A stretch of 64,000 nt of DNA from positions 485,001 through 549,000 of the forward strand of contig JAPJBO010000038.1 in assembly GCA_030068145.1 (NCBI GenBank), in the 5' to 3' direction. The position numbers and the translations under genes are program-made. The notes under the pieces were generated by a model that was given only the letters and a program-made list of their open reading frames with translations, ran no database searches and had not been told where the DNA came from. The stretch is from Diplonema papillatum (Eukaryota; Euglenozoa; Diplonemea; Diplonemida; Diplonemidae). Below, piece after piece: positions 3,822-63,053 of the stretch (position 1 is its first letter; each line of letters begins with the position of its first letter).

Positions 3822-4836
3822 TTATACCCTGTACACGCGAAGAACAAAATGATCGTCCGTTGCTTCGTTTATCAGTGCAAGCCCCAACTCCGGAAATGTT
3901 CTTCCCGTCCAACGACACCCCCCCCCCAACCACCTGGTTCTTGGGTGGCTTGACGACTGCGCAGCAGCATTCCCGCAGTGAGACTGTAAGAAATGGCCGA
4001 GCTTGCCGCACGTGGCGACCGAGGCGAATGGCATGCGCTTGGCGGCTGCCCTGAGCTTCAACGAGGGCTTCCACAGCCGTTTAGCGTCTGCCCACATCTC
4101 ACCAGACCTGATTTTCGCCTCGTCCAAGTCGCGTTTATCCGGCTCCTGCTCAACGAAAGCCGCCAGCGTCGCTCTGCCTAAAGCCTTTGGTATATGCAAG
4201 AAAAATCAAGACCTCTCTTCGACAGCTCGAGTGCGTCTTCGAAAGCCTCGTTCTGCAGAGCGCGAGCGAACAGCCACTCGTCCTCAGTAGATGTAGCCAG
4301 CTGGCCCAGCGATCGTTCGAGTCCGTCGAACAGCCGGAATGAGCAAATAGCCGTCACGGTTCTTTCTGCCATCTTCACGTGCTCTTCAGACATTACGCAG
4401 AGGGCAGCTCCCGCTGCTATGAACGACACTTTTGTTGGCTCTGATGGCGCTTTCAACGGTCGCGTCTAACGGGTTTTGCCTCTTGTGAACGACTCGGTTA
4501 GGCAACTCCCGAACATGCTTGAACATCTTGAGCGCGGATCGCAGCTTAGAAACCTCTCGTTTCCAACCATCGTCGGCGCGATCGATCAGCTCCCTGAACT
4601 CTCCGTAGTCGGCTAGAGAGCCGTCCAGGAGAGATGCAACGTCCAGCAAACCGTTCAAGTCGCAAGTCCTTCGACATCGGCACCGTCAGCCAAATGTGGT
4701 GTGCCAATGCGACAGCCGCTGACGATCCCGTGAGGACATTCTGAGACTGCCGAGCAAGCCTGATAACTTCTGCCTGCAGATTGTTGTTGAGCAAGCACTT
4801 GTAGCCTTTTGCGTCTGCAGCCAGTTCTCTAGCCAT
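3822..4836 (-). pseudogene. 5' half of an unrecognised gene, frameshifted
   Basis: Read on the minus strand from an ATG at 4836, coding-like segments continue in changing frames. The first (4836-about 4660) has an amphipathic helical start. A segment at about 4658-4470 is followed by one at about 4430-4200 and then one ending near 3990. No known domain is visible. The last 120 bases (about 3985-4125) recur at about 18000-18125, where the gene continues as the 3' half (16130-18108). The two loci therefore look like pieces of one family, of perhaps 800-900 residues. Multiple frame changes without clean GT-AG borders suggest a relic, though sequencing errors or introns cannot be excluded. Confidence 0.45.
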
Positions 4837-8655: not shown

Positions 8656-9186
8656 ATGGAGCCAAGCACCAAGTTCCAGCTCTGGACACTTTATGCAGTC
8701 AGGACAACGTTCTAATCTGCTTCTAACCTTCGGGGGTCAGTTTGACCAACACCAGGCACCGACCCTCCAACCATTGCCCACCTTACTTTCCCCTCCCTAG
8801 TTGCACCGCAGGTACGTCACACGACGTCACTGGCTAGTTGCGTTAAAGCCACATTAGCCGTTCCCACCTCGCACGTTACCAACCCTTTTTTTTCAACGCT
8901 TTTCCTACCCAGTACGCCGAGCTACCTCAGTGCCGTACGGCGCCAGTGGTACAGTGCCAGCAAGGCACGCGTTCAAGGGTGGCAATTTCGCTCATGAGAA
9001 ATCGGTAGGATGTGGCGCAACATCAGTGAGCCGAAGCTCGGGGACCGAGAATCGAATTGTTGAGAGCCTGCACGCTGCTTGTCATTCTTGAGGACACGAC
9101 CAGTGTGCCTTCCGTGTATCGCTTGCAAAAGTTAATTCTTCAGTCTTCAGGTTCACACCCTCGCCCCACACTAAAGCCGAAGAACC

Positions 9187-9924
9187 ATGCCGAACACGTC
9201 CGAGAGAGCCACTTTCCAGCCCACGACGTGCGGGCCTGCAAAGTACACTGGTGGCGCGCCGATGCCGACACAAGTTGTGAACAAAGCAACGCCGGAAGAA
9301 CAGCGCAAGGTGGAACAACACCACGAGGCGACGAAGGCACAGCAACGCGTCGAGTACGCGCAGGCAGCGCACCAAGAGAACAAAGAACACAAGAAGGGAA
9401 TGATGGACAAGGCAAAGAGCGCGGCTCACCTCGCGGGAGCCAAGACAGCCGCCGCACTGTCCAACACGCAGCACTCGATGACAGACAGGTTCCACAAGAA
9501 GGCAAGCGACGCAGAACAGAAGTGGTTCATGCAATGCTTCCCTGAGCTGCACAAGACCGAGACTGTGATCGAGGTGTACCAATGCTTGTACGTCGACGGC
9601 AAGGCACACGAGCACCTTGGGAAGCTGGCAATCACGAACTGTGGTGTTCACTTCGCTGATGGCAACAAAGACAAGAAGCTGAGCTTGAAGGAGTCTGCTC
9701 CGTACAAGTTGATTGCCAGCCTGCACATCACAGAGACGACGCCGAAGCGACTCGATGTGTACACGACTGACAGCAGAGTGTTCCACTTCAAGAACCTGCG
9801 GTCGGAGAACATCGAGCACACGAGTGTCGAGGAGACAATCTACGAGGCACACAACTGGATGGACTTCCACTGGAGAAAGGCCTCCGCAGTGCCACACCCA
9901 GCGGCGACGTACCACTCTTCGTGA
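9187..9924 (+). CDS. GRAM-domain-like protein, copy D (internal gene)
   Basis: Complete 245-codon copy with Arg at residue 101 and a TGA stop. It is flanked on both sides by the standard 531-bp spacers. At this resolution its protein is the same as that of copy E. The DNA differs from copy C at a few positions, including agc/agt in the alanine-rich segment, so conversion among copies is recent but incomplete. Confidence 0.8.
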   Translation: MPNTSERATFQPTTCGPAKYTGGAPMPTQVVNKATPEEQRKVEQHHEATKAQQRVEYAQAAHQENKEHKKGMMDKAKSAAHLAGAKTAAALSNTQHSMTDRFHKKASDAEQKWFMQCFPELHKTETVIEVYQCLYVDGKAHEHLGKLAITNCGVHFADGNKDKKLSLKESAPYKLIASLHITETTPKRLDVYTTDSRVFHFKNLRSENIEHTSVEETIYEAHNWMDFHWRKASAVPHPAATYHSS

Positions 9925-10455
9925 ATGGAGCCAAGCACCAAGTTCCAGCTCTGCACACTTTATGCGGTCAGGACAACGTTCTAATCTGCTTCTAACCTTC
10001 GGGGGTCAGTTTGACCAACACCAGGCACCGACCCTTCAACCATTGCCCACCTTACTTTCCTCTCCCTAGTTGCACCGCAGGTACGTCACACGACGTCACT
10101 GGCTAGTTGCGTTAAAGCCACATTAGCCGTTCCCACCTCGCACGTTACCAACCCTTTTTTTTCAACGCTTTTCCTACCCAGTACGCCGAGCTACCTCAGT
10201 GCCGTACGGCGCCAGTGGTACAGTGCCAGCAAGGCACGCGTTCAAGGGTGGCAATTTCGCTCATGAGAAATCGGTAGGATGTGGCGCAACATCAGTGAGC
10301 CGAAGCTCGGGGACCGAGAATCGAATTGTTGAGAGCCTGCACGCTGCTTGTCATTCTTGAGGACACGACCAGTGTGCCTTCCGTGTATCGCTTGCAAAAG
10401 TTAATTCTTCAGTCTTCAGGTTCACACCCTCGCCCCACACTAAAGCCGAAGAACC

Positions 10456-11193
10456 ATGCCGAACACGTCCGAGAGAGCCACTTTCCAGCCCACGACGTGC
10501 GGGCCTGCAAAGTACACTGGTGGCGCGCCGATGCCGACACAAGTTGTGAACAAAGCAACGCCGGAAGAACAGCGCAAGGTGGAACAACACCACGAGGCGA
10601 CGAAGGCACAGCAACGCGTCGAGTACGCGCAGGCAGCGCACCAAGAGAACAAAGAACACAAGAAGGGAATGATGGACAAGGCAAAGAGCGCGGCTCACCT
10701 CGCGGGAGCCAAGACAGCCGCCGCACTGTCCAACACGCAGCACTCGATGACAGACAGGTTCCACAAGAAGGCAAGCGACGCAGAACAGAAGTGGTTCATG
10801 CAATGCTTCCCTGAGCTGCACAAGACCGAGACTGTGATCGAGGTGTACCAATGCTTGTACGTCGACGGCAAGGCACACGAGCACCTTGGGAAGCTGGCAA
10901 TCACGAACTGTGGTGTTCACTTCGCTGATGGCAACAAAGACAAGAAGCTGAGCTTGAAGGAGTCTGCTCCGTACAAGTTGATTGCCAGCCTGCACATCAC
11001 AGAGACGACGCCGAAGCGACTCGATGTGTACACGACTGACAGCAGAGTGTTCCACTTCAAGAACCTGCGGTCGGAGAACATCGAGCACACGAGTGTCGAG
11101 GAGACAATCTACGAGGCACACAACTGGATGGACTTCCACTGGAGAAAGGCCTCCGCAGTGCCACACCCAGCGGCGACGTACCACTCTTCGTAA
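10456..11193 (+). CDS. GRAM-domain-like protein, copy E (last gene of second cluster)
   Basis: Complete 245-codon copy with Arg at residue 101. Its TAA stop and 3' flank match copy B rather than D. The coding part groups with D while the 3' flank groups with B, as expected if coding regions are homogenised by conversion and the cluster end is kept. The tail block and hairpin repeats follow. Confidence 0.8.
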   Translation: MPNTSERATFQPTTCGPAKYTGGAPMPTQVVNKATPEEQRKVEQHHEATKAQQRVEYAQAAHQENKEHKKGMMDKAKSAAHLAGAKTAAALSNTQHSMTDRFHKKASDAEQKWFMQCFPELHKTETVIEVYQCLYVDGKAHEHLGKLAITNCGVHFADGNKDKKLSLKESAPYKLIASLHITETTPKRLDVYTTDSRVFHFKNLRSENIEHTSVEETIYEAHNWMDFHWRKASAVPHPAATYHSS

Positions 11194-24243: not shown

Positions 24244-24547
24244 CGCTTCTTCATCATTCATCATCCCGTCTTGCTAGGCTGCTCACAGTCGCTCGAAGAT
24301 CTTTCTGTCCCTTTTCGCCACCAACCCGCCTGCAGTCCCCGTGCTTGCTGCCATGATTTAGAACATCTTCATCTCGAGAGCTTCCGGTCTCATATGCACA
24401 TCGCCCACTTGCCTGCGGTTTCCGTCCCTCGTATGCTTATGCTTGGCACGTCTTGGGCCAGACAGTGGTCAACATGGTCGCCCATGGGCCAGTCAGGGGT
24501 CCACCAGTGGTCGAACCCAAAATACTAGTGTCAATCTCGATCACACT

Positions 24548-24613
24548 CTACAACGCTCTACTACACTCTACTACACTCTATTACGCTCGATTACACTCGA
24601 TTACACTCGATTA
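24548..24613. repeat. decanucleotide repeat, left of full-length LINE
   Basis: About six units of ctacactcta grading into attacactcg/attacgctcg, ending exactly where the LINE 5' leader starts. Confidence 0.9.
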
Positions 24614-24638
24614 AAAGCTACAGTTTCTGTACTTTATT

Positions 24639-24705
24639 GGTGTCTTGCCGTGGACACTCTCGAAGGAGAGCGGCACCGGGATCCGTCCCGGTAAAAGGAA
24701 GCACC
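24639..24705 (+). ncRNA. structured RNA motif in LINE 5' leader
   Basis: Predicted stems: P1 24639-24646 with 24699-24705 (one bulge), P2 gccg 24647-24650 with cggc 24671-24674, P3 ctctc/gagag 24657-24670 with loop gaag, and P4 accggga/tcccggt 24675-24692. P1 and P2, and P2 and P4, abut. The related leader at 63054-63135 keeps the same layout with P2 changed to accg/cggt. Function unknown; a self-cleaving ribozyme or a translation element are possibilities. Confidence 0.55.
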
Positions 24706-24805
24706 AAGAAAGTATCAAGAGGACGAAGACAAAGAGAGAAGACCGACGACACACACACACACACACACGCGTACACATCAAGCGGTACAACCCCGAGAGC
24801 GCGCA

Positions 24806-26773: not shown

Positions 26774-29700
26774 ATGCGTGGCGGTGGAGAGACGCACGAA
26801 ACGCTGGGGTTAAGGTTGAGAGAAGCCGCGGACGCGATGGGAGCGAGTGTGCAAGAAGTCCCTGGGGACGGGGCCTGCCAGTTCGCAGCGGTCGCAGCCG
26901 GACTGCCGGGGTGGTCGGTAAGGAGACTTCGTGCACGGGTTGTGGACGCGATGTTAAAAGACCCGACATTCGAAGCACACTTCGCGCCGTCCGAAAGGTA
27001 CGGCAGCTGGTTTGCTTACGTGGAGGCAATGCGGGGGCCGTACGAGTACGGGGACGAGATGACGTTGACGGCAGCCGCGACGGTCACCGGAGCGGTACTC
27101 TGGGTGCTGGACAGCAGGAGGCCGCACATCCTGCGACGATACGCACCTCGCGTGGGCGCCACGGGGCAGCAGACGGCGGTCACGTACGTTCCGGAGCACT
27201 ACGACCGGCTCCTGCTCCCGGGTACCACATTGGCGGAGCTGGCGCTACATGCAGACACGGTGGAAACTGTGGAGTTGAGCCGGGTCGAGCACGCGGTGAG
27301 GGTCGCAGCACATGAAGGAACGGACGCCAGGTCGCAGCAGGTGCCGCCGAAGCGGGACGGGGGCGTGTTACAAGGAGGAAGGGAGACGCTGAAGTTCGGG
27401 ACGATAAACATGACATCTCTCGGGGGGAGGGCACACTTTTTGGATTGTGCCGCTGTCGACATTCTGGCGGTACAGGAGACGCTTTTGACCGACTGGGGTC
27501 AGAGGGAGTTCGAGGACGGCGTCAGGCGAGACTGGAAGTCGCTGTGGGGGGAACCGTGTCGGGAGCGACTTGACCGGCAGGGCAAAGCATCACCGTGGAT
27601 AGCGGAAGCCGGCGGAGCGGGTGTTGCAGTCTTCGCGAAGAAACCGGCGCCGGCCTTCGTGGTCGGGAAGCCGTCACCGAGCCGGAGGTGGGTGCACGTG
27701 GCCGTCGGACTTGGAAGAGGAAACCAATTTTTGCATGTCTTCACACTGTATGCGAACTCGGGGGACAAGGCGGCGCCGGAGAGGGAGAAGATTATTGCGG
27801 AGGTGCACCGAGAAGCAGCAAGTCTCGGACGAGTACCGGTCATTGTGGCCGGCGATTTTAATGCGGAGCCCTCGTCGTCGGCGGCGATGTCGTGCATGCT
27901 GCGATCGGGATGGTACGACGCCGCAGAGATCTGCACCGATGGCGGTGCCCCGAAGACGTACGAGAAGACGGGGACGCGAGGCACACGCATCGATCACGTC
28001 TTGCTGAACGACGTCGCGATACACTCACTGGTAGCGAGCGAAACCACCGTCGTCGTAGACGCGGAAGGGCAGCGGGTGCCCAGCCACAAGATGGTGACGG
28101 TAGAGCTGGACATCACCGCGTTTGCAGACACATGTGAGAGGTACCGCATGCCAAGGTCCATGAGCCAGGTAGACGTGACGCACGAAGGACGGGCAGCAGC
28201 GCGGGCGGAAGAGTTGTTAGTGAAGCACCGGTTCGAAGATGCAGCACCAGATGACGTGGAAGCGCTCTGGGTGTCGGCGACTAAGGCGTGCGAGGGGTAT
28301 CTGGTCGAGCTGGCGGAGAAACAGGGGTTGCTCGACGGGCCCGTTGCCGCCTATCAAGGACGGGGTGAGACAAGAAAGCCTAAGAGAGAACATTTTGCGT
28401 CCGTGACAGACACCGGGACGGGCGCGGGTACGTATGCCTCAAGCAGATTCCGGAAGATATTGAACGGCCTCGACGCCTACATCCGAGGGCTGCAAACACT
28501 GAGTGGGGAAGGACCCGGGTGCATGCCGAGATCGCTGGAGAAGACGTGGGAGAACGTAGTATCGGGACTGGAATCAATGGCCGGACGAGTACCAAAGGTG
28601 CGCGATTTGCCGCGACGCCCGCCGGACTTGAGCGTCGCCCAGACCTTGAGGCAGAAGCTGGAAGCGAGGAGCCGGTCACTGACAGCACAGGCGCGAAAGG
28701 GGAGAATAGCTCAGCTGGAGAGCAAGATGCAGAACTTCCACTGTGCAAACAGGGCGCAACTGCTTCCGTGGTGCAGAAGGAAGAAGGCGGACGGTCTGGT
28801 GGCGCTGAAAGTGGATGGCCGCTACACGGCAAATCTACGGGAGATCGACGCGACGTTGCAGAAAGAATGGGCGCCCATCAACCGGATGTACGCGAGTAGA
28901 CCGGAACCGTGCTATGAAGCCTTCAAGGCGGAGTATGCGGAATACATCCGATGTCGACCGATGGTGTGCCGAGATTTGACGGGCGATGATCTGAGGAGCG
29001 TTCTTGGAAAGAAGCAGCGTGCCGGAGTCCCGGGCGTGGACGGATGGAGCACAGCAGAGTTAAAGAAGCTGCCACTGCCGTTGCTGAACGCCCTGGCGGA
29101 GGTGTTCAACGCGATAGAAGCGACCGGAACGTGGCCGAACGCGTTGTTGGAAGCCGCGGTCACGCTGATCCCGAAAGACGAAACCCTCGACCCGCTGGCA
29201 TTGCGGCCCATCACCGTCACAAGCGCGGTCTATCGCTTGTGGGCGAGCACGAGGCTCAGGGACGTCGTCCAGTGGCAAGAAGGCTGGATAGCAGATAGCC
29301 AGCACGGGTTCAGGCCCAAACACGGAACCGTGGACGTGGTGTTTGAAATCGCCTCGCAGATTGAAGAGGCTCTCTTGACGGGAAAGGAGCTGTACGGCGT
29401 GGCCCTAGACTTTGCCAAGTGCTTCGACAAAGTGCCACGAGACGTCGTGCTGAAGCTGGTGGGGGATCTTGGCCTCCATGAGAGAATTCTCGGGCCGCTG
29501 CGCGATGTTTACGCGCGACTACGAAGGCGGTACAAGTTGCACATGGGGCTGGGAGACATCTTTTACACCACCAACGGGATACTGCAGGGCTGCCCCCTGA
29601 GCGTGATCCTCATCAACGCGCTGCTGTCCATCGTGGTGCGCAGAGTGGACGACGTGGGGGGGGTGACGAGCGAGTCCTTCGCGGACGACCTCACCCTCCT

Positions 29701-32296
29701 GACGCGTCTCAGAGAAGCATGCTTGCAGGACGCCTTGGTGGAAGTCGACAGGTTTTGTGCGAACACCGGCATGTCGATCGGGATACCGAAGACGTTCGCT
29801 TTCGGGACGCCGAAGGGGTACGAAGCGAAGTTGAAGATAGGTGGCACCGACATCGTGACGAAGGAAGAGCTTACAATCGTAGGATGTCTGGTCGGCACGA
29901 AGCGGACACGCAGAACAACGGACCTGCGCTACGACCAGCGTGCAGAGGAGGCCGAACGGTTGGGTGCCTTACCGATCTCGAGGGCGCAGAGGTCGGGGCT
30001 AGCGGCGATGGCGGTTCTACCGGCGGCGACATACGGCTCGGAGTTCGCGCTTCCGACGGTGCGGGGGCTGGGGAAGTTCACCGCAGCATTGCTCAGAGGC
30101 GTCTGGGACCCGGTGAGGCTGCATCGGGCACAGGAGGCCGTGTTGGGCATTCTAAACAAGGCCCACATGCTCGACCCCTACACAGTGCTGCCATATCGGT
30201 CGCTCGGCATGATCGCAGAAGTGTGCCGAAAGAGGCCGGTATGGAGGGCCCGCGTCGCAACAGTTCGAAGGGCGTATGGCAGCAGAATCCGCGCATGGGG
30301 ACCGATCGGTATTGCGGCCGAGCATGCAAAGAAGCTCGGTATACGATGGACAGAAGATCTCGACGACGCCGAGGACGAGGCAGGGAATGTGCTGAGGCTG
30401 GTGCGACAGAGTAAGGGGGAGCGAGGGCACACCCTGAGAAAGGCGATTCACGGCTGGCGACTAGGGGAGCTCGAGAAGAGGCGCACAAACTTCGGAGGGG
30501 TACGGGCGGGTGTCGACTACACCGCGACGAATGCCTACGGGCTGAAGGCGTCGACAACGCTGACGGCCGCGCGGGACGTTGCCGAGGTCGTAGCAGGGTC
30601 GGTGATGACGGAATCACATGCTGCCAAGCTGTGGGGAGGTGACGGGCTGTGCAGACGCTGTGACGAGGCGACGGAAGAAACTCTGGGCCACATTTGGTGG
30701 CAGTGCCGGGCGTATGAACGAATCCGAATGCAACAGCAGTATGCCGAAATTGTTGACGCAGATCGCTCGACTTGGCCTCCGTGCCTGCAAGAACACGGGA
30801 TTCTGCCGAAGGGAAGTCGGATCAACATCGAAGTGCTGCACACATTCATGGCGGAAGTCATGCAAGAGAGACGACGGCTGGAGAGAGAAGGAAGAGACCG
30901 GGCAGTCGGCCACCCCTGGAGACAACTGCACCCTGACGACTGCCCCCCGCGCCGGCTGAATTTCGAAGCGATCGCTGGACCGGGGACCTTCACGGCGGTA
31001 GCAGGAGAGAGGTGGTTCCGGGCGCTGCAGTATTGGCTGGATGGGATGTGCTGGTCGGTAGCGGGTGACGTCTCGACGGCAGAGCTCGCAGTAGACTTCG
31101 AAGTGTACACCGGGCTCGATCTACCGGGCAGTTTAGTGGCGACGACAGGTGGGACGCCGCTGTGTATCCGTGCGAGAATGTTGGCGCGGATGCTGAAAAC
31201 GATCGGGGAAGCGCTTGAGCGGAAAGGGGTGGGGCCGCTTCTGCCGGGTAGAAAGCTGGAGAAGATAGGTTCATTGAGAACGGTAGGGGCCCCCCCATGC
31301 CTCACGGGCTACGAGATGAGGCCAATTTTCCGCGGCGGCGAGGAGACGATGGGAATCTTGGAGACGCAGCTGAAGGCGAGCCGGCATGCGTTCACCGGCG
31401 AGGCGTGGGGGATGGACCTTTTCCCGACGTACGGAAGAGAAAGGGCGGAGCGTGCGGCGAGATGGGCGGCCTTCGATGACGCTACGGAGAAGAGGAAAGG
31501 GAAGAAGTCGGCTGTCGTCGGAGGGGATCCGTGGCTCGTGCCGGAAGGGATTCCCCGACACGAAAAGTGGGGTGAGCGGGTGTGCCCCGGGCACCAAAAG
31601 GTGAAGTGCGACGTGTGTAAGCGCCGGGGCAAGTCGGTGGCGTGGTGCTGCCAGGCCCATCACAGGGAGGGTGATGGCCTAGCCGTAAAAATGTGTGCCG
31701 AGCACCGGATGACGCAGTGCGCCACGTGTAAGACGACAGCGGAGTGCTGTCGCAACCATCACCACCGATGCCTCGATCATGGCATGCCGACGTGCGACGG
31801 CTGTAAGAAACACGCCGACCTGAGGAGTAGGAGACCCGGGCACTGCTGCAGGAAAGGGCACCACCGGGCGGCCGTGGCGAGAGGTGAAGAAACAACGGCG
31901 AAGAAGAGGAAGGCGGAGCCGGAGGGTCCCGCGCCAGCGCCGAGACAGGCGAAACGTGAGAACGTGGTGCTCGTTCTGCCGGAAGCAGAGGAAGACGAGC
32001 GAGAACCCGCAACATCAACGCCGACATCAGCAGCGAAGGTCGGGAAGACGGCGCCAACGCCAGCGAAGAAGCGGCAATCGGACTCCGCGGCGGAGCCGGT
32101 ACCGAAAAGACGCAAAGGACGCGTCGATGCGCCACGACCATCGCCCAGGCGCTGGGAAAAAGCAGAAATCGACGCGCAACCGATGAACCTCGACGAGCAA
32201 TCGAAGGAGAAGCGAAGCACCAAACGCGCGCCTGAGCGCGACGATCAAGACGAGCTAAAGAGGCGAAAGCATGACACATCACGTGCGAAGAGATAA
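26774..32296 (+). CDS. LINE ORF2: OTU protease, APE endonuclease, reverse transcriptase, zinc fingers
   Basis: 1840 residues. About 25-150: OTU cysteine-protease-like domain with DGAC (Asp32, Cys35) and His142 in EHYD. About 205-445: APE/EEP endonuclease with Asn212, Glu235 (QET), Tyr326, GDFN (Asp361, Asn363), IDH (near 407) and final SHK (His438). About 745-1010: RT with GVDG, LRPI, LDFAKCFD (motif A, Asp879), LQGCPLS (motif B) and FADD (motif C, 969-972). About 1290-1310: CxxC...H...C zinc finger of the zf-RVT type. About 1602-1700: three tandem Cys/His units. The tail is Lys/Arg/Glu-rich. It nicks target DNA and copies the element RNA by target-primed reverse transcription. No RNase H or restriction-like endonuclease motif was found. 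Confidence 0.9.
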   Translation: MRGGGETHETLGLRLREAADAMGASVQEVPGDGACQFAAVAAGLPGWSVRRLRARVVDAMLKDPTFEAHFAPSERYGSWFAYVEAMRGPYEYGDEMTLTAAATVTGAVLWVLDSRRPHILRRYAPRVGATGQQTAVTYVPEHYDRLLLPGTTLAELALHADTVETVELSRVEHAVRVAAHEGTDARSQQVPPKRDGGVLQGGRETLKFGTINMTSLGGRAHFLDCAAVDILAVQETLLTDWGQREFEDGVRRDWKSLWGEPCRERLDRQGKASPWIAEAGGAGVAVFAKKPAPAFVVGKPSPSRRWVHVAVGLGRGNQFLHVFTLYANSGDKAAPEREKIIAEVHREAASLGRVPVIVAGDFNAEPSSSAAMSCMLRSGWYDAAEICTDGGAPKTYEKTGTRGTRIDHVLLNDVAIHSLVASETTVVVDAEGQRVPSHKMVTVELDITAFADTCERYRMPRSMSQVDVTHEGRAAARAEELLVKHRFEDAAPDDVEALWVSATKACEGYLVELAEKQGLLDGPVAAYQGRGETRKPKREHFASVTDTGTGAGTYASSRFRKILNGLDAYIRGLQTLSGEGPGCMPRSLEKTWENVVSGLESMAGRVPKVRDLPRRPPDLSVAQTLRQKLEARSRSLTAQARKGRIAQLESKMQNFHCANRAQLLPWCRRKKADGLVALKVDGRYTANLREIDATLQKEWAPINRMYASRPEPCYEAFKAEYAEYIRCRPMVCRDLTGDDLRSVLGKKQRAGVPGVDGWSTAELKKLPLPLLNALAEVFNAIEATGTWPNALLEAAVTLIPKDETLDPLALRPITVTSAVYRLWASTRLRDVVQWQEGWIADSQHGFRPKHGTVDVVFEIASQIEEALLTGKELYGVALDFAKCFDKVPRDVVLKLVGDLGLHERILGPLRDVYARLRRRYKLHMGLGDIFYTTNGILQGCPLSVILINALLSIVVRRVDDVGGVTSESFADDLTLLTRLREACLQDALVEVDRFCANTGMSIGIPKTFAFGTPKGYEAKLKIGGTDIVTKEELTIVGCLVGTKRTRRTTDLRYDQRAEEAERLGALPISRAQRSGLAAMAVLPAATYGSEFALPTVRGLGKFTAALLRGVWDPVRLHRAQEAVLGILNKAHMLDPYTVLPYRSLGMIAEVCRKRPVWRARVATVRRAYGSRIRAWGPIGIAAEHAKKLGIRWTEDLDDAEDEAGNVLRLVRQSKGERGHTLRKAIHGWRLGELEKRRTNFGGVRAGVDYTATNAYGLKASTTLTAARDVAEVVAGSVMTESHAAKLWGGDGLCRRCDEATEETLGHIWWQCRAYERIRMQQQYAEIVDADRSTWPPCLQEHGILPKGSRINIEVLHTFMAEVMQERRRLEREGRDRAVGHPWRQLHPDDCPPRRLNFEAIAGPGTFTAVAGERWFRALQYWLDGMCWSVAGDVSTAELAVDFEVYTGLDLPGSLVATTGGTPLCIRARMLARMLKTIGEALERKGVGPLLPGRKLEKIGSLRTVGAPPCLTGYEMRPIFRGGEETMGILETQLKASRHAFTGEAWGMDLFPTYGRERAERAARWAAFDDATEKRKGKKSAVVGGDPWLVPEGIPRHEKWGERVCPGHQKVKCDVCKRRGKSVAWCCQAHHREGDGLAVKMCAEHRMTQCATCKTTAECCRNHHHRCLDHGMPTCDGCKKHADLRSRRPGHCCRKGHHRAAVARGEETTAKKRKAEPEGPAPAPRQAKRENVVLVLPEAEEDEREPATSTPTSAAKVGKTAPTPAKKRQSDSAAEPVPKRRKGRVDAPRPSPRRWEKAEIDAQPMNLDEQSKEKRSTKRAPERDDQDELKRRKHDTSRAKR

Positions 32297-32352
32297 CCGC
32301 GCCGTCGGCGATGCAGATTATCGCCACAGATTCTTTGCATTCTAATCCAAAC

Positions 32353-32396
32353 GATTACACTCGATTACACTCGATTACGCTCGATTACACTCGATC
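32353..32396. repeat. decanucleotide repeat, right of full-length LINE
   Basis: Four to five units of attacactcg/attacgctcg directly after the LINE 3' UTR. The right-hand copy beside the truncated LINE is 22513-22536. Confidence 0.9.
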
Positions 32397-32957: not shown

Positions 32958-33389
32958 TTACCCTCGCTGTACAAACGTTTGCGTTTGCAAAATCCATGTC
33001 AAAAGTGGATGAGGCGCTGGCTGCGCATGGCAGTGGGATCCACGGAAGTTACCGCGGGAGGTCTGCCTTTTCCGATCTGAATGAATGGTTGGCGGCCAAC
33101 TTAGCGGCCAGCGGTGCCGCTGTTTGAATCCAACACCATCAAGGTTCACACAGACACCACCTTTCTCGAGATGCTTCACCAGACCGATGCGCGTCAACAA
33201 GGAACCAGCAGCGCTGTGCCCCAAATCAACGCCAGGCGTCAAACTCATCAACGACTCACCGATGTGCGAAATCTGTAAGCCGGCCACAATCCAGTCAAAA
33301 CTGGCCGGGAACAGCCAGCGCTGTTTGCCCACCTCCCATTTGAGGAAGGCCATCGTCTTGAAGGAGTGAAGAAGTGGGCGGTCTGACAA
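32958..33389 (-). CDS. hypothetical protein fragment
   Basis: The minus-strand frame has natural composition over about 85 residues after an internal Met near 33350, with hydrophobic and Gly-rich segments. The remaining residues are less convincing. No domain recognised. It abuts the retrotransposon at 33427 and may be an exon of a disrupted gene. Confidence 0.25.
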   Translation of the reverse strand: MSDRPLLHSFKTMAFLKWEVGKQRWLFPASFDWIVAGLQISHIGESLMSLTPGVDLGHSAAGSLLTRIGLVKHLEKGGVCVNLDGVGFKQRHRWPLSWPPTIHSDRKRQTSRGNFRGSHCHAQPAPHPLLTWILQTQTFVQRG

Positions 33390-33556
33390 ACCAGACTCAC
33401 ACCGCAGAAAATCCTTTTTTTTTTTTGTCGTATAAGATCGAAGATCTTAGAAGATTAATACTATTCCGACGAGAACTAACACTTGTACAAAGGTTATTAC
33501 CCCGTCGCTCTCGAGAAGAACACCGTAATTTTACCCCTCGCTTGCCTCAAGTAAAG

Positions 33557-34372
33557 ATGCCGAAAAAGGTCACAGCGGAATATCTGGCAACCCTCAAGCT
33601 CGTCGAGTTGCGCGCTATCGCGGCCGAACTCGGGGTCGACGTTAAGGGCCTGCGTTCGAAGGCCGACGTCGCCGCTCGCATCGTCGAGAAGAAAGACGGC
33701 GCCCCGCTAGAGGAGAGTGACGACGAGACAGACGGAGACGAAGATTCGGACGACGCAGCCGGGCAAGCCGACGATCAGGCAGAGGCAAGGGCGCGCGTTG
33801 CGCACGCAGAAGCGAGCCAGGCGCAGGCCCCCCTACCCTTTCACCCTGAGCCGCAGTGGCATACGAGACCCCCGTTCTCGGAAGGGGAACTGGCCGACCC
33901 CGCTGAGTGGCTCCGTGATCCCTGGCGCGCGTTCGAAGAGGCGAAGCGGACCTGGGGTCCGTCCACGCTGAGAGCGGCGAGCGCCAAACGCGAGGTGGCG
34001 CGTGCGTTTGAAGTCATTCGTCAGCTCGTCCCCGGTATGCGCGACCCCGCCATTCAGGACGTCATAGGCGGCCTGATACGCGATGCCATCACAAGGAGAT
34101 GGAACCCAAGGGCGTTGGCGGCGGCAGAACAGCGGGCGAAGTGGGCGGAGTTCCCGTCCGAGATTTCGGAGCTCAAGGACGCCTACGACAAGGAGATGAA
34201 GAAGATGCCGTCCCGCTTCCGGTCCAGGGGCGCAGAACACCGTCTACGGCACGGCGGAAAGGGGTACAGGGGGCACAGCGCGCCCCGCGAGTCGTCGTTT
34301 AAGGGCGACGGACGAAAAAACGGAAAGGGCGGAAAAGGCGGATGGAACTCGGGGAGGGGTAATCGTTGGTGA
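33557..34372 (+). CDS. gag-like protein of YR retrotransposon
   Basis: 271 residues from the first ATG after repeat A1. Residues about 8-50 form a SAP/Rho-N-like helix-turn-helix (Leu/Glu/Ala spacing with Gly-Leu-Arg-Ser-Lys). About 55-100 are an acidic Asp/Glu stretch, and about 100-220 are helical with several Trp. The last 50 residues are Gly/Lys/Arg-rich and probably bind nucleic acid. There is no CCHC finger. The frame is open upstream to 33374, but that part crosses the repeat boundary. The stop lies 13 bases before the recombinase ATG. Confidence 0.75.
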   Translation: MPKKVTAEYLATLKLVELRAIAAELGVDVKGLRSKADVAARIVEKKDGAPLEESDDETDGDEDSDDAAGQADDQAEARARVAHAEASQAQAPLPFHPEPQWHTRPPFSEGELADPAEWLRDPWRAFEEAKRTWGPSTLRAASAKREVARAFEVIRQLVPGMRDPAIQDVIGGLIRDAITRRWNPRALAAAEQRAKWAEFPSEISELKDAYDKEMKKMPSRFRSRGAEHRLRHGGKGYRGHSAPRESSFKGDGRKNGKGGKGGWNSGRGNRW

Positions 34373-34385
34373 AGGCTACCCCTTC

Positions 34386-35294
34386 ATGAGCGTCGTTCCA
34401 CTGGGGCCAAGAAGCCGCAGCACGCGTCCGGGACGACCGCTAAAGACGTTTCGAAACGCGACGCAAGAGCGGATCACACACGCCCTCCACCGCGTGTACA
34501 GCGCCTCCTACGCCGAGGCTACGTGGCGAAACATGGGGTACTCCGCCGCGAAGTGGACGAGGTTTGTGGTCCAAGCCCGACTCCAGAGCCACCCGCCGGC
34601 AGACCAGTTGCTGGCGTTCATCGGGTGGTGCCACGCCGAGGGGCTAAAGCCCACTTCGATACTCACCGAGGTCGCCAACATCCGCGCGACACTGCGCATG
34701 GAAGGCGTTGTCCTCAACGACTATCGGATCACGATGGCTCAGAGAGGCCTCGCGAAGCTGAAAGCTGGCGTGCCCCGACAGGCGGCGCCGATATCGAAAG
34801 ACGTGTTGTATCGGACGGTGGACCGGCTGGTCAAGAGCGATCCTCAGGCGGCGGTGATCTTCGCGGTCGCATGGTTGACAGCGTCGAGAGTCGGAGACGT
34901 GAGGAGACAGCGCGTGGGAGCGGTGAAGTGCTCTTCAGACGGCGTGCTCGAGATAGAGTGGACGGAGAGGAAGGACTGGCGGAACGTCGGGATCGTGACG
35001 CAAGTCTGGTCCGGAAAGCTGCGGCACATGATCACGACGTACCTGTCCCGGAAGCTGCCGGACGAAACACTCGGGGGCGACAGGACGACAGCGCAGTACG
35101 CAGCACTTCTGCCGAAGGGACTCACGGCTCACTCCATCCGGAGAGGAGCCGCACAACACGCCCTCACAGCTGCCGATCCCGAGGCTGTCAGGACCCTGAC
35201 CCTCCACGCCACCCTCAACGGACTCATCCGCTACGCCCCCAGGTGTCACGTGCGGACACAGCTCGGCGCCTCCCGAGCCCTGACGGAAAATTAA
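34386..35294 (+). CDS. tyrosine recombinase of YR retrotransposon
   Basis: 302 residues. An N-terminal SAM-like DNA-binding region (about 25-130) is followed by the catalytic domain. The first catalytic Arg is in TASRVGD (Arg168), then HSIRR (His249, Arg252), His274 and the nucleophile Tyr283 in LIRYAP. This is the full R...HxxR...H...Y set of phage-integrase-type enzymes. It should join the circular DNA intermediate to the target. The RT frame overlaps its 3' end in the -1 frame. It lies before RT, whereas in classical DIRS and Ngaro elements it follows RT-RNase H. Confidence 0.9.
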   Translation: MSVVPLGPRSRSTRPGRPLKTFRNATQERITHALHRVYSASYAEATWRNMGYSAAKWTRFVVQARLQSHPPADQLLAFIGWCHAEGLKPTSILTEVANIRATLRMEGVVLNDYRITMAQRGLAKLKAGVPRQAAPISKDVLYRTVDRLVKSDPQAAVIFAVAWLTASRVGDVRRQRVGAVKCSSDGVLEIEWTERKDWRNVGIVTQVWSGKLRHMITTYLSRKLPDETLGGDRTTAQYAALLPKGLTAHSIRRGAAQHALTAADPEAVRTLTLHATLNGLIRYAPRCHVRTQLGASRALTEN

Positions 35295-36913
35295 AAGGAG
35301 ATGAACTTGCCTCCTTTCTTCACGATGATGCTGCCGTGAAGCCATCGGTGAGCAACGCGGTCCTGCTATGGGACTCAAACGCGAGCAAGGCGTGTAAGAC
35401 TCACCCTCCCGCACTTCCGACTGCTAGAATCGCTCAGTCATCACCACCTCTGCTAAATTTTGTTCGGGCAGATGTTCTAGCGCACAGCGTCGGCGGCCAC
35501 GCATGGATCGAGGCGTCGAGGTGGATCCGCGACCCGGACTTCTTTTATGCTAACTATCAGCGTTTCTGGGGGCGACGGCTGCTCGAGCCGCTCTCAAGGC
35601 TCCACCCAAACCACGCTGCCGACGTGGCAATGTCGTCGATCACCGGACGAGTGCCGAAGGCCACCCCCATCACCGAGATGAGGCTGTTCACCGTCGCGAA
35701 GAAAACACCGGACGAGGGGCGCCTCATATGTTGGCCGAAGGCGCTCAACGAGCACGCCACACCGGACCCCGGACCCCCCACGGTCCTACCCTCAAGGGAA
35801 GAGGTGTGGGACACAATACGTGCATCGGTGATGGGCCTCGAGGTGGACGCCGTGAGCTACTTCCACGCTTTTCCTTTGCACCCGTCCATTTCTCTAGCTT
35901 TTGGGATGCGACTTCCGATACATGGGAAGAGGGTCCTCAAAGTGATGCCCATGGGTTGGGACAAGTCGATGGGTGTCGCGACAAACTTGGCCGATTTGTT
36001 AGCGCGAGTGGTTAGGCAGAAATGCCCCGCCGGACGCGTCACTCCCTGGGTGGACAATTTCTTCCTTTCAGCCCCCGATTCACGCACGATGCTGAGTGTG
36101 TGGAAAACTTGGAAAGCGGTGTCCAGTTTTGTTGGCCTGAAGACGAAAGACGAGGAGTATGCTCCGCGTTCGCGTGTGACGTGGCTGGGACTCGACGTCG
36201 ATCTCGCCAAGAACCTTCTTCGAGCCCCTTCGAAGGTAGTAAACGCCCTCACGGACGCCGTCGCCGCGGCGGAGCGCGCTTGCACGTTCAGAGAGGCCTA
36301 CCGGGTGTTGGGCACGGTAAATTTCCACATGTATTTCTTAGGCATTGATGCGTGGGACTACCCGACACTGTCTCGTTTCCAGTCGCGCTTCGGCAGGCTC
36401 CTAGCTGACCAACCGCGGCTCTGGGACACGGCTTGTCCGATATGGCCTTCCTTTGCTTCGGCGCTCCGGGCGGTCACACGGGAAATTGGCCAGTGGCACA
36501 GCGTGCCAGAGAAGACCCGGGGGCGCGTCTTCCTCCTTTACACGGATGCCTCCCTCTCCGGTTGGGGCATTCTAGCTTCTGGTTTCTTCGCTGAAGGGGG
36601 CACATGGGATGCTTGTGAGTCGGGCGAGCCAATACACAGGCTGGAGGCCCGCGCTTTGTTGAAAGGCGTAGTGCGGATCTCACCCCTCCTTCCACGAAGG
36701 GCGACTATAAGGGCGATGGTGGACAACACCGTATGCGTTCATTCCGCGGCGCGCGGGCGATGCCGCGATTTCCTCACGGCTGAGGTGCTCAGGTCGGCGA
36801 AGAGGACTGCCGCCCTCAGAGAACAGCGGCTGGAATTGGCGTATGTTTCCACGAAGGAGCAGCTCGCCGACCCGCTATCGCGCGGTCTACCAACGCCGCA
36901 ATCATGGTTTTGA
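35291..36913 (+). CDS. reverse transcriptase-RNase H of YR retrotransposon
   Basis: About 540 codons in the -1 frame relative to the recombinase, with no ATG near the beginning; the first in-frame ATG is at about 35629. RT motifs: EVDAVSYF (motif A, near 35845), MPMGW (near 35945) and WVDNFF (motif C, near 36050, with Asn where the second catalytic Asp is usual), then WLGLDVD. RNase H: LYTDASLSGWG (near 36537), HRLEARAL (Glu), MVDNTVC (Asp) and a final QLADPLSRG (Asp), so all four acidic residues are present. The frame is open back to 34523 across the recombinase gene, but that part is a shadow. Expression probably needs frameshifting or reinitiation. Confidence 0.85.
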   Translation, partial: LKGDELASFLHDDAAVKPSVSNAVLLWDSNASKACKTHPPALPTARIAQSSPPLLNFVRADVLAHSVGGHAWIEASRWIRDPDFFYANYQRFWGRRLLEPLSRLHPNHAADVAMSSITGRVPKATPITEMRLFTVAKKTPDEGRLICWPKALNEHATPDPGPPTVLPSREEVWDTIRASVMGLEVDAVSYFHAFPLHPSISLAFGMRLPIHGKRVLKVMPMGWDKSMGVATNLADLLARVVRQKCPAGRVTPWVDNFFLSAPDSRTMLSVWKTWKAVSSFVGLKTKDEEYAPRSRVTWLGLDVDLAKNLLRAPSKVVNALTDAVAAAERACTFREAYRVLGTVNFHMYFLGIDAWDYPTLSRFQSRFGRLLADQPRLWDTACPIWPSFASALRAVTREIGQWHSVPEKTRGRVFLLYTDASLSGWGILASGFFAEGGTWDACESGEPIHRLEARALLKGVVRISPLLPRRATIRAMVDNTVCVHSAARGRCRDFLTAEVLRSAKRTAALREQRLELAYVSTKEQLADPLSRGLPTPQSWF

Positions 36914-47247: not shown

Positions 47248-47448
47248 TGACTCACGGAAGTGACCGTAATCTCGGTACCGCGCACAGAGAAGCTTTTCGT
47301 GTCGTTTTTTTTTTTTTTGTCGTATAAGATCGAAGATCTTAGAAGATTAATACTATTCCGACGAGAACTAACACTTGTACAAAGGTTATTACCCCGTCGC
47401 TCTCGAGAAGAACACCGTAATTTTACCCCTCGCTTGCCTCAAGTAAAG

Positions 47449-48264
47449 ATGCCGAAAAAGGTCACAGCAGAATATCTGGCAACCCTCAAGCTCGTCGAGT
47501 TGCGCGCTATCGCGGCCGAACTCGGGGTCGACGTTAAGGGCCTGCGTTCGAAGGCCGACGTCGCCGCTCGCATCGTCGAGAAGAAAGACGGCGCCCCGCT
47601 AGAGGAGAGTGACGACGAGACAGACGGAGACGAAGATTCGGACGACGCAGCCGGGCAAGCCGACGATCAGGCAGAGGCAAGGGCGCGCGTTGCGCACGCA
47701 GAAGCGAGCCAGGCGCAGGCCCCCCTACCCTTTCACCCTGAGCCGCAGTGGCATACGAGACCCCCGTTCTCGGAAGGGGAACTGGCCGACCCCGCTGAGT
47801 GGCTCCGTGATCCCTGGCGCGCGTTCGAAGAGGCGAAGCGGACCTGGGGTCCGTCCACGCTGAGAGCGGCGAGCGCCAAACGCGAGGTGGCGCGTGCGTT
47901 TGAAGTCATTCGTCAGCTCGTCCCCGGTATGCGCGACCCCGCCATTCAGGACGTCATAGGCGGCCTGATACGCGATGCCATCACAAGGAGATGGAACCCA
48001 AGGGCGTTGGCGGCGGCAGAACAGCGGGCGAAGTGGGCGGAGTTCCCGTCCGAGATTTCGGAGCTCAAGGACGCCTACGACAAGGAGATGAAGAAGATGC
48101 CGTCCCGCTTCCGGTCCAGGGGCGCAGAACACCGTCTACGGCACGGCGGAAAGGGGTACAGGGGGCACAGCGCGCCCCGCGAGTCGTCGTTTAAGGGCGA
48201 CGGACGAAAAAACGGAAAGGGCGGAAAAGGCGGATGGAACTCGGGGAGGGGTAATCGTTGGTGA
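47449..48264 (+). CDS. gag-like protein, second copy
   Basis: 271 codons, the same protein as at 33557-34372 with at most silent changes seen; SAP-like start, acidic middle and basic Gly/Lys/Arg tail retained. Confidence 0.75.
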   Translation: MPKKVTAEYLATLKLVELRAIAAELGVDVKGLRSKADVAARIVEKKDGAPLEESDDETDGDEDSDDAAGQADDQAEARARVAHAEASQAQAPLPFHPEPQWHTRPPFSEGELADPAEWLRDPWRAFEEAKRTWGPSTLRAASAKREVARAFEVIRQLVPGMRDPAIQDVIGGLIRDAITRRWNPRALAAAEQRAKWAEFPSEISELKDAYDKEMKKMPSRFRSRGAEHRLRHGGKGYRGHSAPRESSFKGDGRKNGKGGKGGWNSGRGNRW

Positions 48265-48277
48265 AGGCTACCCCTTC

Positions 48278-49186
48278 ATGAGCGTCGTTCCACTGGGGCC
48301 AAGAAGCCGCAGCACGCGTCCGGGACGACCGCTAAAGACGTTTCGAAACGCGACGCAAGAGCGGATCACACACGCCCTCCACCGCGTGTACAGCGCCTCC
48401 TACGCCGAGGCTACGTGGCGAAACATGGGGTACTCCGCCGCGAAGTGGACGAGGTTTGTGGTCCAAGCCCGACTCCAGAGCCACCCGCCGGCAGACCAGT
48501 TGCTGGCGTTCATCGGGTGGTGCCACGCCGAGGGGCTAAAGCCCACTTCGATACTCACCGAGGTCGCCAACATCCGCGCGACACTGCGCATGGAAGGCGT
48601 TGTCCTCAACGACTATCGGATCACGATGGCTCAGAGAGGCCTCGCGAAGCTGAAAGCTGGCGTGCCCCGACAGGCGGCGCCGATATCGAAAGACGTGTTG
48701 TATCGGACGGTGGACCGGCTGGTCAAGAGCGATCCTCAGGCGGCGGTGATCTTCGCGGTCGCATGGTTGACAGCGTCGAGAGTCGGAGACGTGAGGAGAC
48801 AGCGCGTGGGAGCGGTGAAGTGCTCTTCAGACGGCGTGCTCGAGATAGAGTGGACGGAGAGGAAGGACTGGCGGAACGTCGGGATCGTGACGCAAGTCTG
48901 GTCCGGAAAGCTGCGGCACATGATCACGACGTACCTGTCCCGGAAGCTGCCGGACGAAACACTCGGGGGCGACAGGACGACAGCGCAGTACGCAGCACTT
49001 CTGCCGAAGGGACTCACGGCTCACTCCATCCGGAGAGGAGCCGCACAACACGCCCTCACAGCTGCCGATCCCGAGGCTGTCAGGACCCTGACCCTCCACG
49101 CCACCCTCAACGGACTCATCCGCTACGCCCCCAGGTGTCACGTGCGGACACAGCTCGGCGCCTCCCGAGCCCTGACGGAAAATTAA
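48278..49186 (+). CDS. tyrosine recombinase, second copy
   Basis: 302 codons, same sequence as 34386-35294 at the protein level; Arg168, His249/Arg252, His274 and Tyr283 all kept. It could act in trans for other copies even though the RT of this copy is broken. Confidence 0.9.
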   Translation: MSVVPLGPRSRSTRPGRPLKTFRNATQERITHALHRVYSASYAEATWRNMGYSAAKWTRFVVQARLQSHPPADQLLAFIGWCHAEGLKPTSILTEVANIRATLRMEGVVLNDYRITMAQRGLAKLKAGVPRQAAPISKDVLYRTVDRLVKSDPQAAVIFAVAWLTASRVGDVRRQRVGAVKCSSDGVLEIEWTERKDWRNVGIVTQVWSGKLRHMITTYLSRKLPDETLGGDRTTAQYAALLPKGLTAHSIRRGAAQHALTAADPEAVRTLTLHATLNGLIRYAPRCHVRTQLGASRALTEN

Positions 49187-58914: not shown

Positions 58915-59996
58915 GGGCTAATTCCCATTCTCGAACACAATTTAACTTTTTGCCCATTCTCGAACACTCGCTAACTTTTTGCCCATTCTCGAACACTTTT
59001 TAACTTTTTGCCCATTCTCGAACAGTCGCCTAACTTTTTGCCCATTCTCGAACATTGAAATTTGCCCAGGGTGGGATTCGAACTCACCACCCAACATCCA
59101 AATCCATTTCCGATTCCGATTTCCGTCGGATCCGTTCCTCGAACAAGGTGCCAGCATTGTGGTTGGCTGCTGCGTCCCGGCTCCGTATCCTGGTTGCGCA
59201 CTGGGCATTGACACCGCAGACTACGGGTAAACGGTTTTCTAAACACAGATTCGTGCATAATTCAGGTATGCGCGAGTGACCAGCCCGTTCTACTGTTCAA
59301 CTCTGAAAAAAAATTGACCAAAAAAATTGGACCCCGAATTTTTGACCAAAAAATTTGACCCAAAAAATTTGTCCTAACTTTTTTGACCCAAAATTTTTGA
59401 CCCAAAATTTTTGTCCTAAATTTTTGACCCAAAAAATTTGACCCAAAAATTGACCGAAAATTTTTGAGCCAAAAAATTTCGGTCAAATTTTTTGAATCAC
59501 TTTGCTGCAAAGTTGCAAGCTGCTTCTCCTGGTGTAGGTCAGTGAACTAAGGTCACTCAATGGCCGCCGCGCAATTTGCAAGCAAGACGAGCAAACTCAG
59601 TGAAGTCTGTGCCGGGTTTGTAGCTCGCACACCACCGTCACGTGTAGAAGCTTGAAGCAACCAAGAACCCGAGTTTAGATGCCGAAGAGGCTGCGGCCTG
59701 AAGTTAGCAAGAGTACCGTCTTCGAATCAGTGAACGCAGCTGTTCTCGCGGTGAAACTTGAGGCAAATGTCTCGGGGAAGTGACATTTTCACCACAAAAA
59801 CTGGAATGTTCGAGAATGGGCAAAAAGTTAAATAGTGTTCGAGAATGGGCACAAAGTTACCGAGAATGGGCAAAAAGTTAAAAAGTGTTCGAGAATGGGC
59901 AAAAAGTTAGCGAGTGTTCGAGAATGGGCAAAAAGTTAAATAGTGTTCGAGAATGGGCACAAACATAAGGAAGTGTACTATAATGGGAATTGTCCC
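58915..59996. mobile_element. Mutator-like non-autonomous element A with 9-bp TSD
   Basis: 1082 bp. Ends gggctaattcccatt / aatgggaattgtccc, with target duplication TGAAAATGT at 58906-58914 and 59997-60005. Each end holds about five inverted 29-bp repeats of the cccattctcgaacactcgctaactttttg type (about 58920-59055 and 59807-59965). The middle has a tRNA-like box-B region, a (tttttgacccaaaa)n tract at about 59310-59480 and no gene. Confidence 0.85.
59064..59175 (-). repeat. tRNA-like box-B region inside element A
   Basis: Minus strand: gagttcgaatccc is a consensus box B (its core is the complement of 59073-59083) within a partly paired gggtgg/ccaccc context, with ggcaccttg upstream. It sits just inside the left repeat array. 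Not a functional tRNA. Confidence 0.45.
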
Positions 59997-60017
59997 TGAA
60001 AATGTGTCTCCACAGTG

Positions 60018-60287
60018 GGGTAAACACCATTCTCACACTTTTTCAACAATTCTTACCATTCTCACACGGTTGCAACAAATGCTACCATTCTCACACAGTC
60101 GCAACAAATGCTACCATTCTCACACAGTCGCAACAAATGCTACCATTCTCACACAGTCGCAACAAATGCTACCATTCTCACACAGTCCGAACAATTTCTT
60201 ACCTTTCTCACACAGTCGCAACAAAATGCTACCATTCTCACACAGTCGCAACAAATGCTACCATTCTCACACAGTCGCGTGTACACA
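60018..60287. repeat. array of 29-bp repeats (accattctcacacagtcgcaacaaatgct)
   Basis: About nine units. The complementary array lies at 62783-62905, with one more unit at 61280-61310, so these form the long inverted ends of a further element (about 60017-62905) into which element B inserted. Confidence 0.75.
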
Positions 60288-60729
60288 CAAAATGATTAGA
60301 AAGCTACAGGGCAGTGTGAGGTTTAGCTACAAAAAGCTACAGCTAGCTACAGCGTAGCTTTTTGTAGCCTTTTGTAGCTCTTTTTTTTGGGGGGGGTTCC
60401 CAGCCCATTCAGGATACTTTTCGCCCCAATTTCTTCAGTTTCGAAGTTTTCTGGGCATATTTTGGGTTTTCCTGGCACCTGCTTTGCCCTGTGCACTGGG
60501 GCCCGCTGCAGTCTACCGAGCCTCAGTGAGGGTCGGTCACTCGGTGAGGCTGCAACCACGCAGGCGGCGAGGGTGATGCAGCAGGGAAGCCTGGGGCGCC
60601 AGAGTCACGACGGTTCCATGAAGCGAAGCCAATCAGGACCCCAACCGCAGAGCGAAGAGCGCTCGAGACAGTGTGGGCCCGGAGCCCCGGCTGGAGCTCT
60701 CATTGCACTCCAGAGCCCCGGGCTGAGTC

Positions 60730-61190: not shown

Positions 61191-61310
61191 GCAATTCAAG
61201 TCACTTTGGCCCTTTGGAAAGTTTGGGGTCTTATAATCTTAGAATTTGAGTGGCGACGGTTCAAACCCGCCTCTCTGGTCTTTGGTATTTGTTGCGACTG
61301 TGTGAGAATG

Positions 61311-62773: not shown

Positions 62774-62944
62774 GTGAGAATGGTAGCATTTGTTGCGACT
62801 GTGTGAGAATGGTAACATTTGTCGGAGCTTGTGTGAGAATGGTAAAATTTGTTGCGACCGTGTGAGAATGGTAAGGTTTGTTGAAACTTGTGTGAGAACG
62901 GTAAAAATTTGTTCGAGACTGGAGGTCCTATGAACATGCAATGT

Positions 62945-63035: not shown

Positions 63036-63053
63036 CGTTTTTCGTACTTTATT

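Follow-up and report, generated by a model that had tools for sequence, protein, structure and literature searches.

The window, by which we mean the whole stretch of 64,000 nucleotides of Diplonema papillatum DNA that was analysed, carries two copies of LINE retroelements, each with a remnant of the host spliced leader (SL) at its 5' end. The features that bear on these two places are the following.

24536 to 24613, plus strand: 10-bp tandem repeat upstream of LINE copy 1 (the target array), which resumes at 32352-32395.
24611 to 24639, plus strand: SL relic that opens LINE copy 1; its 29 nt agree fully with the 3' part of the 39-nt SL.
24640 to 24653, plus strand: core GTGTCTTGCCGTGG of copy 1, invariant in sequence; CGTG at 24649-24652 is a candidate downstream promoter element, a function suggested by the account of L1Tc in PMC4748587.
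24806 to 26758, plus strand: ORF1 of LINE copy 1, 650 aa, no Pfam match.
26774 to 32296, plus strand: ORF2 of LINE copy 1, 1840 aa, with Exo_endo_phos and RVT_1.
63044 to 63054, plus strand: SL relic of copy 2, 11 nt.
63055 to 63068, plus strand: core GTGGCTTACCGTGG of copy 2, directly after the SL relic.

Copy 2 runs past the end of the window into a long ORF, the later part of which matches ORF1 of copy 1 (26%, 139 aa, E 4e-7). Just upstream of copy 2 lie tandem arrays of related units with a 29-bp period (58924-62921). Elsewhere in the window, ORFs of near-equal length and order (332/334 and 302/302 aa) recur about 13.9 kb apart (33374-36913 and 47260-50136), and part of the window looks duplicated; an overlapping ORF pair (277 aa on the minus strand, 245 aa on the plus strand) occurs three times (1073-1915, 9082-9924 and 10351-11193).

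The genome of D. papillatum, of about 280 Mb, is described as having an SL of 39 nt and an SL intron of 75 nt, SL genes that alternate with those for 5S and U2, an SL on essentially all mRNAs and about 2500 gene models of retroelements (PMC10161547). In the assembly searched here (271,365,524 bases in 2910 contigs), SL RNA genes carry the 39-nt exon AACCAACGATTTAAAAGCTACAGTTTCTGTACTTTATTG (seen in locus L099) and sit in a repeat with 5S rRNA and U2. Behind the exon the SL genes continue with GTACTTTAACACACC (L099), whereas the LINE leader continues with GTGKCTTRCCGTGG, which is not SL intron; an SL RNA gene, or a copy or fusion of one, was therefore rejected as the identity of the leader.

A leader common to positions 24639 and 63054 had been predicted, and it is real: both places share the core CTTTATTGGTGNCTTNCCGTGG (24632-24653 and 63047-63068), and with up to 3 mismatches allowed the pattern is found nowhere else in the window and in 0 of 100 shuffles. 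The original prediction missed that the leader at 24639 begins exactly at an SL junction, position 24639 being the final base of the 29-nt relic and 63054 the final base of the shorter, 11-nt one. The leader is a repeated module fused to the host SL: the 5' UTR of a LINE clade begins with it, and it follows the last base of the SL exon without a gap.

Across the genome, CTTTATTGGTGNCTTNCCGTGG with up to 2 mismatches occurs at 379 places at least (1 in a reversed control), and the core GTGKCTTRCCGTGG preceded by at least 8 SL nt occurs without mismatch at 325 places at least (control 0); all genome-wide counts are lower bounds. The leaders fall into families F1 (window copy 1), F2a, F2b, F2c (window copy 2), F3a and F3b. 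An AP-type endonuclease and a reverse transcriptase in one ORF, as in APE-type LINEs, are found in F1; the other families are known from ORF1 alone. ORF1 proteins match across the F families, mostly with 22-37% identity over longer stretches (63% between F3a and F3b), and the core is unchanged throughout this divergence. Two genome pattern searches for more diverged leaders gave 0 and 1 place.

A sample of 70 copies was selected by the core plus at least 8 SL nt and comprises 68 of the first 100 CTTTATTGGTGNCTTNCCGTGG places together with the two window copies, themselves included in those 100; the removal of three copies whose flanks were duplicates left 67. These have the character of SL-tagged retrocopies, with the SL exon fused to the 5' end of an mRNA at unrelated sites, since the 67 copies have differing flanks and 5 of them retain 38 SL nt. 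When an exact 13-nt SL tail was sought and the core was not demanded, 29 of 30 loci belonged to the F group and 26 of 30 had the exact core in place; in the others the core follows after 2 extra nt (L128), has one mismatch (L130) or is lacking (L111), or the sequence is unrelated (L124). The 27-nt 3' part of the SL, at up to 1 mismatch, occurs at 629 or more places in the genome (control 0). The 30 loci of this kind that were read (L009-L038) include 4 with the F core, 8 with an intact G leader (see below) and 18 others, among them a shortened G (L037) and an SL-gene-like copy (L030), which suggests that many SL-tagged retrocopies exist beyond the F and G LINEs. Judged by eye, L034, in which SL is followed by target-repeat sequence and a shortened LINE, and L037, in which the SL meets an internal AG of G, have the appearance of products of ordinary trans-splicing. 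At one further locus, an F2c leader with 11 SL nt (L067, contig C97 near 4017-4088) faces an inverted SL relic of full length, head to head.

The most striking property of the leader is that the SL in front of it ends at a preferred place. Among the 67 copies, 9 SL nt are kept in 2, 10 in 2, 11 in 5, 12 in 3, 13 in 35, 14 in 3, 15 in 6, 16 in 5, 29 in 1 and 38 in 5, so that 61 of the 67 keep 9-16 nt and none ends at 17-28 nt. The mode is 13 nt in F1 (12/17), F2ab (6/9) and F3 (17/36), whose folds differ; F2c copies keep 10, 11, 11, 38 and 38 nt. Genome-wide, in the lower-bound counts, exactly 13 SL nt (13, then a base other than T) stand before 135 of the 325 cores, and 39 of the 325 keep at least 18 nt. 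Full SLs are found in every F family, in 1/9 to 2/5 of the copies, and the tails are identical to the present SL at 13 of 13 positions even in diverged families. Of the 14 copies in which SL nt 26 is matched, 11 have a match at nt 25 as well (P 2.5e-4 at 0.3 per base), a hint that the start of some RNAs truly lies higher up in the SL.

A natural control is provided by the sister family G, whose leader GCTGCTCRCGCGGCCGG is without CGTG, whose ORF1 is related, which partly uses the same target repeat and which carries full SLs. At least 18 SL nt are kept in 67 of 70 G copies (lower-bound counts) as against 39 of 325 F copies (Fisher P 9e-44, in a test that treats copies as independent). Within a set of 8 proteins, the ORF1 of G is related to those of F2a and F3, with best E values of 7e-9 (F2a-G2) and 2e-8 (F3b-G), the best for F1 being 0.004. 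The repeat ACTCAATGCTTAA or a near form of it lies at the junction in 5 of 9 F2ab copies and 5 of 11 G copies that were read; the SL part at these junctions is 11-13 nt in the five F2ab copies and 39, 36, 39 and 26 nt in four of the G copies, the fifth having a deletion. The short SL is thus tied to the leader or to its element, and not to SL copying or to the target in general.

Trans-splicing alone does not suffice for these tails. It requires an AG before the leader, and copies with such an acceptor are almost absent, so new copies must mostly inherit or regenerate their SL tail; long and short SLs within each family indicate that renewal of the SL occurs too. A pattern search for acceptors gave 6 places (9 in the reversed control), of which three are leaders without an SL tail, two after AG (L131 and L132, both F3) and one after AGC (L135, F2c), the remaining three being unrelated sequence. 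No acceptor copy of family G was seen in the assembly, which may miss copies, and full SLs on G thus need another source. L111 is an F2a copy that has 13 SL nt and from which precisely GTGGC to TTAG is missing, as if a 5' splice site had been provided by the SL tail plus GT, or an acceptor by an inner AG.

Behind the SL junction the leader can be folded as an RNA. The predicted elements are the following.

24640 to 24657, plus strand: local P1, GTGTC 24640-24644 with GACAC 24653-24657, from the alignment of nine leaders; C24657 is shared with the first P3 pair.
24647 to 24674, plus strand: P2, GCCG 24647-24650 with CGGC 24671-24674, a pseudoknot if local P1 forms.
24657 to 24670, plus strand: P3 hairpin, CTCTC with GAGAG, from folding and the letters.
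24675 to 24692, plus strand: P4 hairpin of 7 bp, ACCGGGA 24675-24681 with TCCCGGT 24686-24692.
24629 to 24715, plus strand: alternative closing helix P0, SL tail GTACTTT 24629-24635 with AAAGTAT 24709-24715 and TTGGTG 24637-24642 with CACCAA 24702-24707.
63055 to 63122, plus strand: folded leader of copy 2, with P1 GTGGC/GTCAC, P2 ACCG/CGGT, P3 CATAAACC/GGTTTGTG and P4 ACCGG/CCGGT.

Several claims of the original prediction about this structure stand. The compensatory change in P2 is present (GCCG/CGGC in copy 1, ACCG 63062-63065 with CGGT 63104-63107 in copy 2), P4 differs in length while staying paired (7 bp against 5 bp, 63108-63112 with 63118-63122), and nine distinct leaders support a leader common to different LINE families whose paired segments change together. 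The proposed outer P1 (GGTG 24639-24642 with CACC 24702-24705) did not hold, as it uses a base of the SL relic and is lost in copy 2 (CCCC 63132-63135). The structural signal does exceed that of shuffled sequence, though not strongly (z -2.3 with 4/200 shuffles as good for copy 1, z -2.0 with 5/200 for copy 2); with 12 nt more upstream and 15 downstream, the values are z -4.2 (0/200) and z -1.95 (7/200).

Local P1 (GTGKC and its partner) and P2 pair in all nine leaders and together would form a pseudoknot, with the hairpin P3 and an A-rich linker between them. In the nine-leader alignment, in which MAFFT set P4 of F3 one column off, 3 of 14 pairs are changed on both sides. The covariation score and the percentage paired were reached by 0 of 500 shuffles, as many pairs changed on both sides by 16 and the pair types by 119, while slid partners pair in 19-47% of cells as against 94%; as the families are few, the support from covariation is moderate. 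When 13 SL nt are included, energy folding yields z -3.5 for F1, -3.6 for F2a, -3.3 for F2b, -1.5 for F2c and -1.0 for F3, the last two being little better than shuffles (15/200 and 31/200 as good). The structure favoured for F1 and F2 is nested: the SL tail and GGTG pair with bases downstream to close it, and this excludes local P1. Only in F1, F2a and F2b does the closing helix do better than shuffles, and even there not when the SL part is taken by itself; for P0 of copy 1, 17 of 500 shuffles are as good with the leader part and 166 of 500 for the SL part alone. An RNA fold, be it the pseudoknot of local P1 and P2 with P3 and P4 or the closing helix with the SL tail, probably exists.

A general rule that the leaders are built to pair with the SL tail was not borne out. 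In duplexes of the 13 SL nt plus the first leader bases with the 3' leader, the number of shuffles out of 500 that are as good is 17 and 14 for F1, 1 for F2a, 2 for F2b, 50 and 178 for F2c, and 266 and 139 for F3; with the 13 SL nt alone, none of eight leaders is significant (69 to 432 of 500). Partition functions of the full SL with 90-nt leaders, a length that cuts off the 3' strand of F2, give 3 of 200 shuffles for F1, 1 and 0 for G, 55 for F2a, 33 for F2b, 70 for F2c, and 74 and 24 for F3; among 15 other SL-tagged leaders, the lowest values are 6 (L020), 10 (L035) and 14 (L014). With 112 nt plus 13 SL nt, the counts out of 150 are 16 for F1, 6 for F2a, 4 for F2b, 20 and 13 for F2c, and 20 and 46 for F3. 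The SL tail of G lies in a 17-pair hairpin (in a listing of hand-chosen helices, which pair by construction), yet G keeps its SL, which argues against a simple link between pairing and loss of the SL.

The original prediction could not fit the leader to the HDV or hammerhead cores, and a ribozyme is not supported here either. At the gathering score, Rfam gives no match of any kind in the 64,000-nt window, HDV type included, and at E up to 5 six leader loci yield one sub-threshold snoRNA match only and no HDV type; the HDV, hammerhead, twister and other Rfam ribozyme models were accordingly rejected. To speak of a new class of leader RNA goes too far. The leader starts at the SL junction and is best conserved in a linear core of 14 nt, the fixed distance of which to the 5' end makes a DNA promoter element equally possible.

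What sets the preferred end inside the SL? One answer, which we consider unlikely, is that the folded leader blocks a 5'-3' exonuclease or undergoes self-cleavage; regardless of the upstream sequence, the RNA would then begin about 13 nt before the fold and be copied in this trimmed form. The better-than-shuffled folds of F1, F2a and F2b, the pairing of local P1 and P2 in 9/9 leaders, a predicted closing helix that reaches SL nt 27 in F2a and F2b, and the scatter of ends over 9-16 nt, which suits a stalling nuclease, are consistent with this. However, F3 folds little better than shuffles, as does F2c, and yet has the 13-nt mode; the hairpin with the SL tail has not cost G its SL; no known ribozyme family matches; and L111 also speaks against it. 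It is rather unlikely, likewise, that the leader is an RNA device on the host SL whose pseudoknot or SL-tail helix ends trans-spliced or read-through RNA inside the SL. If it were, an exonuclease stop or a new kind of self-cleavage would rid the LINE of the host's cap and of the greater part of the SL ahead of copying.

Doubtful to the same degree as such a device is a stop during copying, in which the mRNAs carry the full SL and the reverse transcriptase of the F group tends to halt near SL nt 24-30, perhaps at the hairpin TACAG-TTT-CTGTA or at a modified base; the trypanosome SL bears a pseudouridine at position 28. The full SLs in each family would fit, as would ends that fall in the loop and 3' arm of the hairpin and spare 17-28 nt. 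But G, with a related ORF1, copies the whole SL, the making of further full-SL RNAs depends on an AG in front of the leader, which only L131 and L132 have, and a hairpin should halt the enzyme before its 3' arm and not behind it. Least probable is that core and fold serve a later step (ORF protein binding, export or translation) and that the 13-nt tail was captured long ago and passed on by a few source elements, for although the core is conserved across families with diverged ORF1, long and short SLs coexist within each family and the tails of diverged families show no difference from the present SL.

An internal promoter is the best, if unproven, explanation, and we favour it tentatively, at somewhat short of even chances: the 14-nt core may be a downstream core promoter like that of Pr77, which sets the RNA start inside the SL relic, with the fold present besides. 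In this scheme, CGTG of the core, about 23-25 nt inside the RNA start, would act as the promoter element. RNA polymerase would start within the SL relic, so that the RNA and each new copy begin with the same 13 nt and no splice acceptor is needed to keep this end. Occasionally, a LINE RNA would gain a full SL, possibly by trans-splicing or by template switching to the SL of an mRNA over the 13-nt homology; this would renew the tail and leave a minority of full-SL copies.

We prefer a promoter because the fixed 5' end (13 nt in 35 of 67 copies) recurs in families with differing folds, because G, without CGTG in its leader, keeps at least 18 SL nt so much more often, because a splice acceptor at the leader is almost absent, because L111, without the core as if it had been spliced out, still ends at 13 nt, and because the core is unchanged across diverged ORF1s. 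Counted from the first base that matches the SL, CGTG starts at +23 in 35 of the 67 copies and at +19 to +26 in 61. Against a promoter, CGTG is only 4 nt long and lies 1-2 nt off its place in L1Tc, F2c ends at 10-11 nt in 3 of 5 copies, G, too, is without acceptor copies seen, and L111 was possibly trimmed before splicing. A fixed inherited tail also fails to account for the full agreement of tails in diverged families with the present SL, for the 39 of 325 copies that keep 18 SL nt or more and for the co-matching of SL nt 25 and 26. What can be read from the copies themselves is that LINEs of this diplonemid have host SL sequence at the 5' end, which breaks off at a preferred place, and that hundreds of genomic 5' ends may document the point at which LINE RNA had its start.

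Exonuclease-resistant RNAs and the 5' pseudoknot of insect R2 are compact pseudoknots near a defined 5' end. The likeness of the Diplonema leader to them lies in a predicted pseudoknot near the 5' end; the topology differs. SLACS, CZAR and CRE are LINEs of Euglenozoa that adjoin SL sequence and insert into SL genes, whereas the SL relics of Diplonema lie at many sites with unrelated flanks; SLACS-like insertion into SL RNA genes was rejected, as the flanks of the 70 copies are unrelated to these genes. SLACS is named in the D. papillatum genome paper (PMC10161547). SL-tagged retrogenes are known from dinoflagellates and are alike in that a trans-spliced mRNA is copied back with its SL; as described there, full SL relics sit on host genes, while in Diplonema it is LINEs that carry a remnant with a preferred length of 13 nt (PMC6050394, PMC12014239). 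Among the best literature matches, judged by title and the opening of the abstract and with subscription papers mostly outside, no description of SL relics in LINEs of diplonemids or euglenozoans was found.

The closest comparison is Pr77 of the L1Tc and ingi elements of trypanosomatids, the sister group of diplonemids (PMC4748587, PMC4035085, PMC8190864). As presented in these papers, it too is a short, conserved and highly structured module at the extreme 5' end of a LINE, common to diverged elements, and its CGTG near +25 has a possible counterpart in that of the Diplonema core; the likeness is one of features. For L1Tc of T. cruzi, an internal promoter is reported in which CGTG at +25 to +28 is essential and from which unspliced RNAs that begin at +1 are made and translated (PMC4748587, PMC8190864). 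Pr77 differs in that it holds an HDV-like ribozyme, of which the window and six leader loci of Diplonema give no match, and in that the papers call its transcripts unspliced, while SL sequence is present on the Diplonema copies. If the core does act as a promoter, a downstream LINE promoter of the CGTG type would span from trypanosomatids to diplonemids.
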